The notes under the pieces were generated by a model. That model was not told the origin of the DNA, made no database searches, and worked only from the letters and a program-made list of their open reading frames with translations. The position numbers and the translations under genes are program-made. A stretch of DNA of 44,982 nucleotides from a virus, in the IMG/VR virus record IMGVR_UViG_3300033388_004059, positions 1 through 44,982 of that record. The stretch is one strand, 5' to 3'. Below, one piece after another: positions 3,169 to 9,068 of this stretch; position 1 is the first letter of the stretch, and each line of letters begins with the position of its first letter.

Positions 3169-3551
3169 AGCGATATAAACAAAGGGTGATCTTCCCAATT
3201 GCTGCTACAATGATTGACGAATGTGAAATTGAAAGCTATCGGCACGATAATGGCGAATGGGTCAAGTGGGAAGATGTTAGAAAGGCTGATTGTGTTTGCA
3301 AAGATCATAGATCATGGCCAGCAGGTTGTTTTTGGAATTGTTCTTTACATGGCAAATGCGTCAATGTTGATACGCTTGATCTTCCTTCTGGTAAAATATC
3401 TGTGCAAAAAATTACAGAAACCGAAAGCATTGAGTGTAATTGTGCTGAAAAATCACAAAACTTACAAATCAAGATCAGCGATGGTACTATACCAAACCAC
3501 CCAAGGTTTAAATCTTGGATTTGTCCGGCGCATGGATATAAAAAATTATAG
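3165..3551 (+). CDS. Cysteine-rich hypothetical protein
   Basis: A 128-residue protein with ATGA overlap to terS. It contains many cysteines and histidines (CVCKDH near 43-48, CFWNCSLHGKC near 55-65, CNC near 92-94, CPAH near 120), suggesting one or two zinc sites. No catalytic domain recognised. Positioned between the terminase subunits, where phages often carry small accessory genes. Confidence 0.65.
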   Translation: MKRYKQRVIFPIAATMIDECEIESYRHDNGEWVKWEDVRKADCVCKDHRSWPAGCFWNCSLHGKCVNVDTLDLPSGKISVQKITETESIECNCAEKSQNLQIKISDGTIPNHPRFKSWICPAHGYKKL

Positions 3552-3563
3552 AAAGGAGCAAAA

Positions 3564-3794
3564 ATGAGCAAAATTATTTTAACAGAAAAAGAAAAAGAAG
3601 AAATTAAACCCATTGTGGATGAATTAGACACAGCAAGGGTTGCTTTTTCAGTCGCCTCAGCAATGATCAAACGAGCTGAGAGACGTTTATGGAAGAGACT
3701 GAAAGAAAAATGGCCTTACGTTGTATCTATTGATCATGGGGACGATGAAGATTGGGCTATAATTATAGATGACCTTCCAGATATTAGCGCATAA
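3564..3794 (+). CDS. Hypothetical 76-residue protein
   Basis: A small highly charged protein (MSKIILTEKEKEEIK) with a helical N-terminal half rich in Lys/Glu and an acidic tail (DHGDDEDWAIIIDD). GAAAGGAGC precedes the ATG with good spacing. Its stop overlaps the first base of the terL ATPase gene, so it is co-translated with packaging genes. Unknown function. Confidence 0.65.
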   Translation: MSKIILTEKEKEEIKPIVDELDTARVAFSVASAMIKRAERRLWKRLKEKWPYVVSIDHGDDEDWAIIIDDLPDISA

Positions 3795-4948
3795 TGCACC
3801 CATCCACCCAATATGCAAAAGACGTCCTTTCCGACAAGATTTTGGCTTGTCGCTGGGTCAAACTTGCCTGCCAGCGCCAGCTTGACGATCTAAAGCATGG
3901 CCACAAGAAAGGCTTATGGTTCGACGAATCCGCCGCCGATCACGCCCTTGAGTTTTTTTCTCATTTAAAACTCTGGAAGGGCAAAGAATATAAAGGCAAG
4001 GAATTTGTCTTAGGTCCGCATTATCAATTCATTATTTCTTGTCTCATGGGTTGGAAAAAAGATAATGGTTTCCGGCGATTTGAGGAAGCCCATATAGAAA
4101 TGGGCAGGAAAGGAGCGAAATCAACAATCGCTGGTGGTTTAGGCGCTTACTTTTTCATTGCAGATGGTGAAGAAGGAGCGGAAATATATACAGCAGCTGT
4201 AAAAGAAAAACAGGCAAAAATTGTATGGAATAATATTAAGAATCTGACAAAAAAATCTATATTTAAGAAATTAATTGAATATTATACAACGAATTTAAGC
4301 ATTGAAACAACATGGAGCAAATGCGAATTTGTTGTCGGTGATCCCAAAGGTCTTGATGGCCTTGATACTCATTTTGCATCATTAGATGAGCTTCATGCCC
4401 ATACAGACTCACAAATTTACGATCTTATAGTTGACTCAGTAGGTTCAAGATCCCAACCATTAGTTTTAACTATTACAACTGCTGGATTCGATCAATCCGG
4501 CGTATGTTTTCAAAATAGAATATATCTAACATCAGTTCTTAAAGGCGTAATCGAGGATGATTCGCTTTTTGGTATCATTTTCACGCTGGACATGAAAAAT
4601 GATTGGCCGGAACTGATCACGCAGCAGGAAAAAGATACCGGGAAAAAGGGAACGGTTGAGGACGACTGGACAAACGAGGATTTATGGGTAAAACCGCTGC
4701 CAGGGCTTTGCGGTATCACGAAAAATGGCATAAGATACGGAGTTGATAAAGCCGGCAACGATATTCCGGGATATATGACCAAGATTGAGCGGGTGCGAAA
4801 GAGATTTAAGGCTGCAAAAGAGATTGTTGCGAAGCAAAACAACTTTTTGACCAAAAGGATGAATGTCTGGACGCAACAGCATACGAGATGGATTGATCTT
4901 GTGCTATGGGATGGGAATTTTACGAAGGAGATATATATTGAAAGATGA
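3794..4948 (+). CDS. terL: Terminase large subunit, ATPase half (split gene)
   Basis: A 384-residue protein covering only the packaging ATPase of an HK97-type (Terminase_1) large subunit. Visible are the adenine-contact region GPHYQF (about 74-79), a Walker A-like GRKGAKS (104-110), Walker B FASLDE (194-199) and a coupling TITTAGF (226-232). The conserved end of the ATPase/linker (RMNVWTQQHTRWIDL) is present, then the sequence diverges after WDGN and stops. The nuclease half is encoded 2.5 kb downstream at 7413-8093. The divergent last residues coincide with the ribosome binding site and TTG start of the next gene, so insertion of a cassette probably split the gene. Confidence 0.9.
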   Translation: MHPSTQYAKDVLSDKILACRWVKLACQRQLDDLKHGHKKGLWFDESAADHALEFFSHLKLWKGKEYKGKEFVLGPHYQFIISCLMGWKKDNGFRRFEEAHIEMGRKGAKSTIAGGLGAYFFIADGEEGAEIYTAAVKEKQAKIVWNNIKNLTKKSIFKKLIEYYTTNLSIETTWSKCEFVVGDPKGLDGLDTHFASLDELHAHTDSQIYDLIVDSVGSRSQPLVLTITTAGFDQSGVCFQNRIYLTSVLKGVIEDDSLFGIIFTLDMKNDWPELITQQEKDTGKKGTVEDDWTNEDLWVKPLPGLCGITKNGIRYGVDKAGNDIPGYMTKIERVRKRFKAAKEIVAKQNNFLTKRMNVWTQQHTRWIDLVLWDGNFTKEIYIER

Positions 4949-5165
4949 AATAGCAATAACAGAAATTATTCAAGAATATAAACGAGCAACAAATAAATTT
5001 GGAAGTTTTGCTTCTACGCATGAAGGATATGCCGTTATTCTTGAGGAGCTTGATGAATTATGGACTGAAATAAAAAGCAATACTGATCCAAAGGGAAATA
5101 TGAGAAAGGAAGCCGTACAAGTTGCGGCTATGGGTTTTCGCTTTATCATAGACTGTTGTTCATAA
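4938..5165 (+). CDS. MazG-like nucleotide pyrophosphohydrolase-family protein
   Basis: A 75-residue protein similar in layout to short phage MazG-like proteins: FGSFASTHEGYAVI (22-34) leads into EELDE (36-40), matching the acidic EExxE metal-binding helix, then a second helix EAVQVAAMGFRF (58-69). These enzymes hydrolyse (d)NTPs to monophosphates; activity here is unproven because the protein is short. The start is TTG at 4938, with AAGGAG eight bases upstream inside the 3' end of the terminase ATPase gene, overlapping it by 11 bases. First gene of the cassette that splits terL; it could shape the nucleotide pool for the modification enzymes nearby. Confidence 0.7.
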   Translation: MKDEIAITEIIQEYKRATNKFGSFASTHEGYAVILEELDELWTEIKSNTDPKGNMRKEAVQVAAMGFRFIIDCCS

Positions 5166-5180
5166 TAATTTAGGAAAAAC

Positions 5181-7400
5181 ATGAAGCAATATTTACCAAT
5201 TATGACAGCTACATCAAACCGTAAGGGCGTATTGGATATTGATACTGTGAAAGGTTGCACTCTTGGAGTAAGAGCATATCCAGCAGGTGGTTGTTATGGG
5301 CATTGTTACGCATTAAAAACTGCCAAACGATATGGTATTGATTTTAGCAAATCTATTGCGCGTAAAGATTGTGATAGAAAAAAAATTGAGCGTATTGTTA
5401 AAAAACATCATGCATCATGGTTTCGCATAGGTTGCATGGGTGATCCTTGCCATGATTGGGATTGGACGATTGAAGTTTGTAAATGGCTTGGAAAAATTAA
5501 AACACCTGTAATTGTTACAAAGCATTGGTTGCCTATGTCTAATAATCATGCAGTAGTATTAAAAAAATGTGGTGCTGTAATTAACACATCAATAAGTCCA
5601 ATGGACGCCAAAGATGAAATAGATTATCGCTTAAAAATGTTTAAATGGTTTAAAAAAAAGGGAATAAAATCTGTACTTAGGATAGTTTCCGCACAATTTG
5701 GCAAAACCGCAGAAGGCAATAGATTAAAGCACATTCAAAACATTCTTTTTAAAAACACACCGGTAATTGATAATCCTTTAAGGATCACAGCGACAGATAA
5801 GCGCGTTATATCGGGTGATATTATAATACAACGGCATAAGGATATAGGAGGCGGGTCTATTGTTAGTGTTTTCAACCAAAGCGCATATATTGGACCGTGT
5901 AAAACGTGTCCTGATCAATGCGGTGTTGATTTTAAAAAATTATGGATAGGAGGTTATGAAATGGCAAATGGGAAAATAGATATGGTTCAAAGCGAGTATA
6001 ATCCTGATAGCATAAAGCAACTAGATTTATTTACAGATGCGATTGAATTTGAATATGTTAAAAGTGTGATTGGTTCAGGTTATGAAGAATCCGTAGCAAA
6101 ATTAGCGATAGAAGATAAAGTTGCCTACAGGGCCGCAAGAAAAAATATGCAAATTCATTCAGCCATTATACTTAAAATTAATGACAAATTTAGCGGATTT
6201 TTTACTTTCCAGGTTAATCATGAAGCAAAAGAGTTTTGTTTATTACAATCTGCGATGGATATAGACAGAAAAGATAAGAATATTTATAGCCAAATGGTAA
6301 ATAAAATAATTGAACAAAATACATACGGCTATCCTATGATAATGACTGTAAGCACAAAACATGATCTTGAATGTCCAAAAGTATTTAAAGCCATAGGATT
6401 TGAAACATATCTTACATTGAGTGGATTTGAATATATGGTTTATGGTAATCTTGAAGATGTAAGAATGAAACGCCTTGCGCACGCAACAATGACAAACGCA
6501 TGGACTACAACTCGTGCAGATTGGCTCAAGATGAAAAAGGAATGGAACGGTAAAATTGAAGCGGCTGGGGAAAAATATGATATACCTAACCCAAAGTTTG
6601 CATCACGCGATGGGTGTTGGCAAGGCAGTAACGGTTATTCAAACGTAGTACTTACCGAAAGGGTTATAGAAGACGGAAAGGTAAAAACGAAGAAAGGTAA
6701 ATCTTTTAACGGCAATGCATCGGTGCTCGATCCGGTCGCGTGTGAAGTTATATTACGCTTTTTTATGCCGAACAATGGTCGCCGGATATATAATCCCTTT
6801 GGCGGTGGTGTTCAATTCGGATTTGTATCTGGCTGTTATGGATATGATTATATCGCAAGTGAAATTCGCCAAAATCAATGTGATGCGAATAATATATTAT
6901 GCCAAGACTTGGATAGTGCAAAATGGATAAAAAGTGATAGTTCAATGTATGAACCAGAGGGAATGTTTGATTTATGCTTTAGCTGTCCCCCATACTACAG
7001 GGTCGAAAAATATATTGATTATGAGGGCGTTATCCCAGACGGTGAATTAAATAATATTGCAACCTATGAACAGTTTAGAGACACACTATTTGAAGGTTAT
7101 AAGAAAGCCATATCAAGGTTAAATGAAAACTGCTTTTTTGTTGTGATGACTGGTGATAGCAGAGATAAAACAGGCGCATATTACGGGTGTGAAGCGGAGC
7201 ATGAGCTTTTTTTCAAGAAGCAGGGATTACATCTTTATAATAAAATTATATATCTTGAATGTGAGTTCACACGGCTTGCACACGCGAAAAGGACATTGGA
7301 TTATAGAAAATTTCCAAAGCGAGAACAGAAAATTATAGTTGCCTATAAGGGTGATATGTCTGTAATAAAAGATATGTATCCAACAATTGGCAGATTGTAA
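5181..7400 (+). CDS. Triple-domain fusion: radical-SAM-like, GNAT-like, DNA methyltransferase
   Basis: A 739-residue protein. Residues ~1-255 carry C26, C38 and C42 in the arrangement GC-x11-GCYGHCYA, like the phage Gp37/Gp68 (DUF5131) and spore-lyase-like radical SAM proteins, plus C85/C90 and a CKTCPDQC cluster (C240-C247). Residues ~285-425 look GNAT-like, ending VFKAIGFETYLTLSGF. Residues ~430-739 are an amino-methyltransferase: motif I NPFGGG (538-543), acidic Glu after GYDYIASE, and catalytic motif IV SCPPYY (601-606), in the order I then IV. Such a chain could perform several steps of base modification; substrate and DNA target are unknown. It lies between the two halves of terL. The GNAT assignment is the weakest of the three. 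Confidence 0.75.
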   Translation: MKQYLPIMTATSNRKGVLDIDTVKGCTLGVRAYPAGGCYGHCYALKTAKRYGIDFSKSIARKDCDRKKIERIVKKHHASWFRIGCMGDPCHDWDWTIEVCKWLGKIKTPVIVTKHWLPMSNNHAVVLKKCGAVINTSISPMDAKDEIDYRLKMFKWFKKKGIKSVLRIVSAQFGKTAEGNRLKHIQNILFKNTPVIDNPLRITATDKRVISGDIIIQRHKDIGGGSIVSVFNQSAYIGPCKTCPDQCGVDFKKLWIGGYEMANGKIDMVQSEYNPDSIKQLDLFTDAIEFEYVKSVIGSGYEESVAKLAIEDKVAYRAARKNMQIHSAIILKINDKFSGFFTFQVNHEAKEFCLLQSAMDIDRKDKNIYSQMVNKIIEQNTYGYPMIMTVSTKHDLECPKVFKAIGFETYLTLSGFEYMVYGNLEDVRMKRLAHATMTNAWTTTRADWLKMKKEWNGKIEAAGEKYDIPNPKFASRDGCWQGSNGYSNVVLTERVIEDGKVKTKKGKSFNGNASVLDPVACEVILRFFMPNNGRRIYNPFGGGVQFGFVSGCYGYDYIASEIRQNQCDANNILCQDLDSAKWIKSDSSMYEPEGMFDLCFSCPPYYRVEKYIDYEGVIPDGELNNIATYEQFRDTLFEGYKKAISRLNENCFFVVMTGDSRDKTGAYYGCEAEHELFFKKQGLHLYNKIIYLECEFTRLAHAKRTLDYRKFPKREQKIIVAYKGDMSVIKDMYPTIGRL

Positions 7401-7412
7401 TATTGAAAAACA

Positions 7413-8093
7413 ATGAAAATTAACTGGCAAAAAACAGCCGAACAATTCAAAGGCCGATGGTGCGCTGCCGGAGTTGACCTTTCCAGCGTGGCCGATCTCA
7501 CTTGCTGCGTGTACGCATTTCCCTATGATGATGATAGAGAGCATGTTGACGTATTAATGCAAACCTGGTGCCCGGAAGCCAAGCTATACGATAGAAAAAA
7601 CAAGTACCGTGACCATTACCAAGCCTGGGCGAAGCTCGGATACATGGAAGTCACTGAAGGCAATGCCATTGATTATGACTTCGTTAGGGAAGCCATTGTC
7701 TCAAACAGCAAGATATTTAAAATTGGCCTGATCGGAGTTGACATTAAATTTCAGGGTTATGACTTTGCAATGCGGCTCGAAAAAGATTTAGGACATACCG
7801 AAAAGAACCCGGTGGTCATAGCCTGTACCAATTCGGCTGCAAAGATCGGGCCGGTTTGCCAGGAATTTGAAAGACGGCTGCTGAAAAAGAAATTGAACCA
7901 TGGCGGGAATCCGGTCTTGCGATTTATGGCGGATTCTGTAGCTGTGAGGGCGGCTGATGTTGATGGATACATAAAGCCCGATAAAGACAAGAGCCAGGGG
8001 AAAATCGACGGTATTGTGGCTATGCTTTATGCCTTGGATCGGCTGATGCGGAGCAAACCGCCGGTAAAGATTAAGATGCCGACATCAATCTAA
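7413..8093 (+). CDS. terL: Terminase large subunit, nuclease half (split gene)
   Basis: A 226-residue protein that matches the C-terminal RNase-H-fold nuclease of HK97-type large terminases. Metal-binding aspartates are visible at D22 (AGVDLSSVADLT), D110 (GLIGVDIKF) and D199 (GKIDGIVAMLYAL). It would make the DNA cut that starts and ends packaging. The beginning NWQKTAEQFKGRW continues directly from WDGN of the ATPase half in related proteins. ATG 7413 has no obvious Shine-Dalgarno (upstream is ATTGAAAAACA), so it may depend on coupling to the preceding gene. With all catalytic residues kept, the halves probably assemble in trans. Confidence 0.9.
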   Translation: MKINWQKTAEQFKGRWCAAGVDLSSVADLTCCVYAFPYDDDREHVDVLMQTWCPEAKLYDRKNKYRDHYQAWAKLGYMEVTEGNAIDYDFVREAIVSNSKIFKIGLIGVDIKFQGYDFAMRLEKDLGHTEKNPVVIACTNSAAKIGPVCQEFERRLLKKKLNHGGNPVLRFMADSVAVRAADVDGYIKPDKDKSQGKIDGIVAMLYALDRLMRSKPPVKIKMPTSI

Positions 8094-8105
8094 AGGAGAT
8101 TAATT

Positions 8106-8309
8106 ATGAAATGGTTAAAAAAAGAAAAAATAAGGCCAATATACACACAACCAGGGGATTCTGTTATATTGTCTGATGATGATGGAGTTTTATTAACTGA
8201 AGAAATAACAGAACGCATGACTATAGACGAAGTTGGAATTTTTGAATTTAAGGATGAATTTGAGATGGAATCCGGTATTGGTGGTATTTTTGGTAAAAGT
8301 AAAGATTAA
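8106..8309 (+). CDS. Hypothetical 67-residue acidic protein
   Basis: Starts MKWLKKEKIRPIY after AAAGGAGATTAATT, a strong ribosome binding site. Basic N-terminus, then acidic body with SDDDG and a C-terminal GIGGIFGKS. No family recognised. Lies between the terminase nuclease gene and a zinc-finger gene. Confidence 0.6.
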   Translation: MKWLKKEKIRPIYTQPGDSVILSDDDGVLLTEEITERMTIDEVGIFEFKDEFEMESGIGGIFGKSKD

Positions 8310-8339
8310 TGCCGACGAGTATTTGAAAGGAGATTATTA

Positions 8340-9068
8340 ATGAAAGTGACATATCCTAAAAACCGTAAAAGTAGAGGGTTTAAAAATATTATTGGCAAAA
8401 GATTTGGTATGTTGATTGTTGTTCGTCTTATTGGCAAAAGAGATGGTAAAAACTTTTTTTGGGAATGTAAGTGCGATTGTGGTAATTTTACAACAACCAA
8501 GTCAGCAAATCTTAATATTGGGAAAACAAAATCTTGTGGATGTTTGAAAAAAAAATATTTTGGAGGTGAATTTTCTCTTGGCGGATTAAATAAAAAAGAT
8601 TTAACAGGCAAACAGTTTCATAGATTAAAAGTATTAAAAGATTCAGGCAATCGGTCGCAAAGAAATATTATCTGGTTATGTGAATGTATTTGTGGGAAAA
8701 AAACAGAAGTTGCAGGTTCACACTTGTTATCGGGGCATACAAAATCTTGTGGATGTTATAATGCCGAGATGCAGAAAAAAAATGGTCAAAAAACAAAAAA
8801 TTTTATTAAACATATCGAATCGATAAAAAAATATCCTAAAGAAGCATACAAAATGACAGAATCTAAACGAATTGTAAAATATTTGGCCGATCAATATATA
8901 AAACAAATTTTATATAATGAAAAAAAACTTAAAACTAAAGACATAACCCCTGAAATGATTGAAATGAGACGAGAACTTATAACCTATTACAGATTAGAAA
9001 AGGAGCTTACAAATGGGATTAATAGCAGAAGAAATCAAAGAATTAAGGCAAATGGTAAAGCATCTTGA
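8340..9068 (+). CDS. Double CxCxCG...SCGC zinc-finger protein (AP2/HNH-associated type)
   Basis: A 242-residue protein with two copies of a treble-Cys module: C43-x-C45-x-CG48 with SCGC at 65-68, and C114-x-C116-x-CG119 with SCGC at 136-139. Each is preceded by a G-(K/Q)-F/R-x-L-V/K strand pattern. This module is typical of AP2- and HNH-linked DNA-binding proteins of phages and homing elements, but no HNH catalytic motif follows; the C-terminal third is a basic helical region. Likely DNA-binding. Good ribosome binding site AAAGGAGA. The 3' end overlaps the next gene by 56 bases in another frame. Confidence 0.7.
   Translation: MKVTYPKNRKSRGFKNIIGKRFGMLIVVRLIGKRDGKNFFWECKCDCGNFTTTKSANLNIGKTKSCGCLKKKYFGGEFSLGGLNKKDLTGKQFHRLKVLKDSGNRSQRNIIWLCECICGKKTEVAGSHLLSGHTKSCGCYNAEMQKKNGQKTKNFIKHIESIKKYPKEAYKMTESKRIVKYLADQYIKQILYNEKKLKTKDITPEMIEMRRELITYYRLEKELTNGINSRRNQRIKANGKAS

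Follow-up and report, generated by a model that had tools for sequence, protein, structure and literature searches.

The tailed phage DNA analysed here (the window: 44,982 nucleotides, positions 1 to 44,982 of IMG/VR virus record IMGVR_UViG_3300033388_004059) encodes a protein of 739 amino acids that joins a predicted radical SAM domain (rSAM-N), a GNAT-fold domain and a CPPY-family methyltransferase (MTase) domain. This single-chain fusion is probably an enzyme of phage DNA hypermodification, in which alkylation falls to the MTase. The MTase domain would bind DNA and attach a group derived from SAM to an exocyclic amine (N6 of adenine or N4 of cytosine). The rSAM and GNAT-fold domains would act either earlier, by changing the donor, or later, by elaborating the group already attached, and the resulting bulky base would shield the viral DNA from host nucleases. 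It is reasonable to infer from family and context that the fusion builds a complex base modification; we likewise infer a DNA substrate, a catalytic role for each domain, an order of steps and a protective effect against restriction. The features are as follows.

4938-5165, + strand: small MazG-like ORF (translation), lying with the fusion gene in the interruption of terL; its association with the enzyme is contextual
5181-7400, + strand: rSAM-GNAT-MTase fusion ORF, 739 aa, ATG to stop
5181-5936, + strand: rSAM-N domain, residues 1-252, predicted partial beta/alpha barrel (separate model and PDB matches)
5256-5306, + strand: putative radical [4Fe-4S]-SAM cluster cysteines C26, C38 and C42 (DSSP position and invariance)
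5898-5921, + strand: second cysteine group C240-x2-C243-x3-C247 (CKTCPDQC, residues 240-247), conserved in 66 of 66 sequences
5934-6029, + strand: flexible linker, residues 252-283 (pLDDT below 50)
6030-6452, + strand: GNAT-fold domain, residues 284-424 (model and fold matches)
6462-7397, + strand: CPPY-family DNA methyltransferase-like domain, residues 428-739, start approximate (PHROGs and profile matches)
6792-6809, + strand: motif I NPFGGG, residues 538-543, in 48 of 48 GNAT-MTase sequences
6981-6998, + strand: motif IV SCPPYY, residues 601-606, with C602-P-P-Y-Y in 48 of 48 GNAT-MTase sequences

The three predicted folds, the invariant cysteines, the coupling of rSAM to GNAT-MTase and the homology of the MTase to phage ParB-MTases were established by prediction and comparison. 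A first-pass annotation made from the letters alone had described a 739-residue chain at 5181-7400 with C26, C38, C42, CKTCPDQC, NPFGGG and SCPPYY; translation of the ORF confirmed the chain on the + strand and all motifs at their residues. The motifs are not due to chance because the cysteines, NPFGGG and CPPYY are conserved across relatives. As a single sequence the chain was matched by no Pfam or NCBIfam model, a PHROGs search recognised the C-terminal methyltransferase alone and a PDB sequence search gave no useful match, the one to the pentatricopeptide protein 4wsl being repeat-like. The AlphaFold2 model of the full chain (59-row alignment) had a pLDDT of 82.4 with disordered linkers and a pTM of 0.56, at which the domain folds are usable and the relative placement of the domains is unreliable. 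Structure prediction supports a layout of an rSAM half-barrel, a GNAT fold and a class-I MTase-like domain. The annotation had staked its triple architecture on a radical SAM barrel and a GNAT fold, and both were found in the predicted models. Against close fused relatives dN/dS was 0.03-0.13 in all three domains where calculable: 0.11-0.13 for rSAM and 0.03-0.06 for GNAT in comparisons with unsaturated synonymous change, and 0.08 for the MTase in a single calculable comparison. By this measure the rSAM, GNAT and MTase parts are under purifying selection.

Modelled alone, rSAM-N gave a pLDDT of 91.9 and a pTM of 0.89, and radical SAM enzymes headed its PDB matches in Foldseek, as expected from the radical-SAM-like domain of the first-pass annotation. 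AprD4 was the best match (E 4.1e-4), followed by PFL-activating enzyme, HydE, TokK, lipoyl synthase, EpeE and BioB; the E-values are modest, one alone being below 1e-3, and unrelated non-rSAM TIM barrels stand lower in the list. According to DSSP of the model, C26 follows strand 1 (residues 23-25) and C38 and C42 precede helix 1 (43-50), which is the place of the radical-cluster loop. Canonical rSAM enzymes carry Cx3Cx2C between this strand and helix, whereas the three invariant cysteines of rSAM-N have the non-canonical spacing C-x(9-11)-C-x3-C. Among about 66 distinct rSAM-N sequences C26, C38, C42, C240, C243 and C247 are invariant or nearly so, with CxxCxxxCG in 66 of 66, and the group C240/C243/C247 is possibly an auxiliary cluster or a zinc site. 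The conserved R82-x-G84...D88-P89 after strand 2 appears to be placed like the GGE-type SAM-binding motif of rSAM enzymes. Searches with rSAM-N alone gave no Pfam (including PF04055) or NCBIfam match and zero matches among 50,697 named phage records. DUF5131 (PF07505) was considered as a candidate family for rSAM-N and rejected, there being no Pfam match and a weak hhalign E-value of 0.011 against a 4-sequence profile.

The middle domain was matched in fold searches of the predicted model to GNAT/NAT_SF proteins in BFVD and to the AprA MT2-GNAT didomain in the PDB, in agreement with the GNAT-like region proposed before. The acyl-CoA pyrophosphate loop [QR]xxGx[GA] occurs in 1 of 48 alignment rows and is absent from the GNAT domain of the fusion; acyl transfer by this domain is doubtful because the standard loop is missing. 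Mom of phage Mu is a GNAT-superfamily adenine-N6 modifier. Membership of the GNAT domain in the Mom family was tried and rejected, with an hhalign probability of 0.45 against 11 Mom proteins and the HYS, PRN(S/T)E and S(F/Y)AD motifs absent, and Mom-type chemistry is only a loose functional analogy for the fusion protein.

The MTase domain is of class I with motif I preceding motif IV. It matched phrog_12517 (1.9e-35) and phrog_498, DNA methyltransferase (1.2e-34), N6_N4_Mtase was matched by 40 of 48 relatives, and its profile aligned with that of phage ParB-MTases in hhalign with a probability of 100 and E 1e-45; CPPY is invariant in the latter as well. A maximum-likelihood tree unites the GNAT-MTases with full support and places them on a long branch; their sister group is the phage ParB-MTases. 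The N-terminal ParB domain is absent from the fusion protein, where rSAM-GNAT stands in its place; a ParB-like gene stands apart at 46-594.

Relatives of the fusion reveal how regularly its parts occur together. The full-length protein as query found 52 viral loci, and an alignment of GNAT-MTases gave 251 matches in IMG/VR (80 kept) and 7 in GTDB genomes. The set scored for linkage comprised 82 non-identical GNAT-MTase loci, drawn from uncultured phages and from a small number of bacterial genomes. An rSAM partner was present in 77 of the 82, either fused (16) or encoded by the immediately adjacent, usually overlapping gene, with gaps between separate genes of -48 to +58 nt (one of -132). The next most regular neighbour cluster reached 17 of 82 loci at most. 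In three of the five loci lacking an rSAM the contig stops next to the gene, another (L060) has no GNAT and L012, whose flanks are present, is the sole real exception. Most relatives are split, with a GNAT-MTase of ~465 aa in one gene and an rSAM-N of ~280 aa in the next, and the linker of residues 252-283 is the site of the split. Fused forms are ordered rSAM-GNAT-MTase, and separate rSAM genes lie mostly downstream and in a minority upstream (some contigs counted twice).

In 11 loci the slot of rSAM-N is taken by a different rSAM protein, rSAM-B, which carries GCxHDCxYCYA and scored above the Pfam Radical_SAM cut-off in 4 of 4 cases tested (33.7-41.6 versus 29.5 bits). It is nearest to PA0069-type (3e-18) and 'mobile pair' rSAM families, matches spore photoproduct lyase (SPL) weakly (2.5e-6) and gave an hhalign probability of 94 against the 4-sequence DUF5131 profile; rSAM-N and rSAM-B share a weak, collinear profile similarity (E 0.002). 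Judged from gene order, the rSAM is strictly coupled genetically to the GNAT-MTase, and the three activities are also tied together by their gene neighbourhoods, irrespective of the fusion. Most host genomes come from taxa of anaerobes (Desulfobacterales, Desulfobacula, Smithella), which fits an enzyme sensitive to O2. The anaerobe hosts, the three folds, the coupling, the slot swap, the MTase family with its place in the tree and the partner enzymes of other CPPY MTases are counted for DNA hypermodification.

Single loci deviate from this picture. L012 has a second, diverged GNAT-MTase copy (5209-5871, ~33% identity) directly after the first. L060 (1448-7320, Riemerella columbipharyngis) encodes an MTase of the clade whose N-terminal region differs; nearby is a 900-aa ORF in which an arginine-rich stretch is reminiscent of Cas9/IscB bridge helices. 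The partner looks decayed in L057, where rSAM-B is internally shortened, and in L053, where rSAM-N lies in two frames.

The window has the terminase, portal, protease, capsid and tape-measure genes of a tailed phage. Its terL is interrupted, with the ATPase part at 3794-4948 and the nuclease part at 7413-8093, separated by ~2.5 kb with the fusion gene and the MazG-like ORF. Both were probably inserted as a cassette, since terL is uninterrupted at the same point in three related loci (L002, L136 and L137). A similar MazG-like ORF stands beside three other relatives (L008, L018 and L062). A group I or II intron as the cause of the split was rejected, as Rfam gave no match in 3500-8500 down to E 1. 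In L137 (1598-4579), and probably in L136, terL carries an insert resembling an intein at Walker A. Upstream of the fusion gene the ParB-like gene overlaps by 4 nt with a B12-binding-type radical SAM gene (591-1910), and this pair (46-1910) has a single weak match (23% identity) in named phages. The B12-type rSAM was rejected as part of the system because no relative occurs beside other GNAT-MTases and it has no close viral relatives.

The wider CPPY family offers a view of possible partner chemistries. Of the best 80 ParB-MTase loci (L138-L217), a sample biased towards the query, 43 have an AdoMet_dc gene, which overlaps the MTase gene by starting ~19 nt before its end. The ParB-MTases adjoining it mostly have Asp in motif I (GDTVFG), a motif that recalls spermidine synthase. 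The presence of this Asp and of a neighbouring decarboxylase gene are correlated (Fisher p 1e-4, phylogeny not corrected for). Homologues of SpeD in phages can instead decarboxylate ornithine or arginine (PMC10407285). Use of decarboxylated SAM (dcSAM) by these MTases is only a hypothesis, given the biased sample, the phylogeny-uncorrected correlation and the other activities of SpeD homologues. The ParB-fused CPPY MTase with its overlapping AdoMet decarboxylase is a candidate DNA aminopropyltransferase system, with cultured examples in Croceibacter phage P2559S (L115) and Pseudomonas phage ZRG1 (L118). A PALP-type PLP enzyme adjoins the CPPY MTase in Mycobacterium phage AlanGrant (L117) and is inserted within it, between motifs I and IV, in Pseudanabaena phage Pam4 (L122). 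The frequent presence of an AdoMet decarboxylase or a PLP enzyme beside members suggests that the CPPY family makes non-methyl base adducts. Neither AdoMet_dc nor PALP genes were found beside GNAT-MTase genes, which counts against the hypermodification reading. We found no paper on a link between CPPY MTases and AdoMet decarboxylase.

It is possible, rather than likely, that the rSAM acts on SAM or another small molecule and yields an unusual alkyl donor that the CPPY MTase transfers, with DNA never meeting the radical and the GNAT domain capping or shaping the adduct. The coupling of other CPPY MTases to AdoMet decarboxylase or PALP enzymes and the tracking of decarboxylase adjacency by motif-I Asp argue for such a donor, for which CmoA/CmoX is a precedent (PMC12783734); however, motif I of the GNAT-MTases has Gly and not the Asp of the decarboxylase-linked group. 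A sequence in which the MTase first uses ordinary SAM to form m6A or m4C, the rSAM functionalises the added carbon through radical chemistry and the GNAT domain then transfers an acyl group is likewise on the unlikely side. Fusion of all three domains by flexible linkers is consistent with it, rSAM action directly on DNA has a precedent in SPL, and the alternative partner rSAM-B resembles SPL weakly, its PA0069-type match being better, but the last step would fall to a GNAT domain that has no CoA loop.

An RNA substrate is conceivable since the PDB fold matches of the MTase part include the tRNA methylases Trm11 and TrmN. We nevertheless consider an enzyme of tRNA, rRNA or protein modification improbable: the sequence family is that of phage DNA methyltransferases with ParB domains, and the genes sit in phages. 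That the protein is a plain DNA methyltransferase whose additional domains are decorative or degenerate, as the family-level annotation of the MTase part alone might suggest, is very improbable given that the rSAM and GNAT parts are under purifying selection, and in view of the six invariant cysteines, the strict rSAM coupling and the slot swap. A DNA hypermodification enzyme is the reading that we prefer.

Tentatively, and with chances somewhat below even, we propose that the enzyme is self-contained and that rSAM chemistry, a GNAT-fold step and a base alkyltransferase act jointly on DNA to give an undescribed base adduct. If so, it would to our knowledge be the first radical SAM enzyme to build a modified DNA base, as opposed to repair or precursor supply. 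The routes to phage DNA hypermodification that are generally known comprise kinases, glycosyltransferases, ligases, deazapurine pathways and Mom. This list is in part documented (PMC7824862, PMC12783734). Phage DNA hypermodification is of a known kind and the rSAM-GNAT-MTase variant appears to be new; we found no paper with this architecture, an earlier prediction in Iyer et al. 2013 being possible. An rSAM step coupled to a DNA methylase would mean new chemistry and a new route past restriction systems, and possibly a tool for labelling DNA at specific sites. The family's IMG/VR matches attest that it is common among uncultured phages, and its chemistry would have escaped culture-based work because rSAM-N is absent from named phages.

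Among known systems, the phage ParB-MTases (phrog_498; Croceibacter phage P2559S gp66, Listeria phage B054 gp77, Enterococcus phage phiFL3A gp36) share the homologous MTase, CPPY, the WxxxKxxW region and the phage context with the fusion, but they have an N-terminal ParB domain and neither GNAT nor rSAM, and the GNAT-MTases form a separate clade. DUF5131, PA0069-type rSAM proteins and SPL have a CYA-type rSAM cysteine loop and are resembled by rSAM-B, whereas they have no family-level match to rSAM-N and are not coupled to a GNAT-MTase. Mom of phage Mu is, like the middle domain, a GNAT-superfamily fold in phage DNA modification and on sequence inspection both are devoid of the canonical CoA loop; unlike the fusion, Mom has no rSAM or MTase partner, and its HYS, PRNSES and SFAD motifs do not recur in the GNAT domain. 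The 5-carboxymethylcytosine pathway of CmoA, CmoX and CmoY couples a phage DNA MTase to a SAM-altering enzyme and to a decorating one, and is a proven phage precedent for the logic of donor change (PMC12783734). It differs in using a C5-cytosine MTase, separate genes, no radical SAM and no GNAT, and according to its authors no N6/N4 carboxymethyltransferase candidates are associated with CmoA (PMC12783734).
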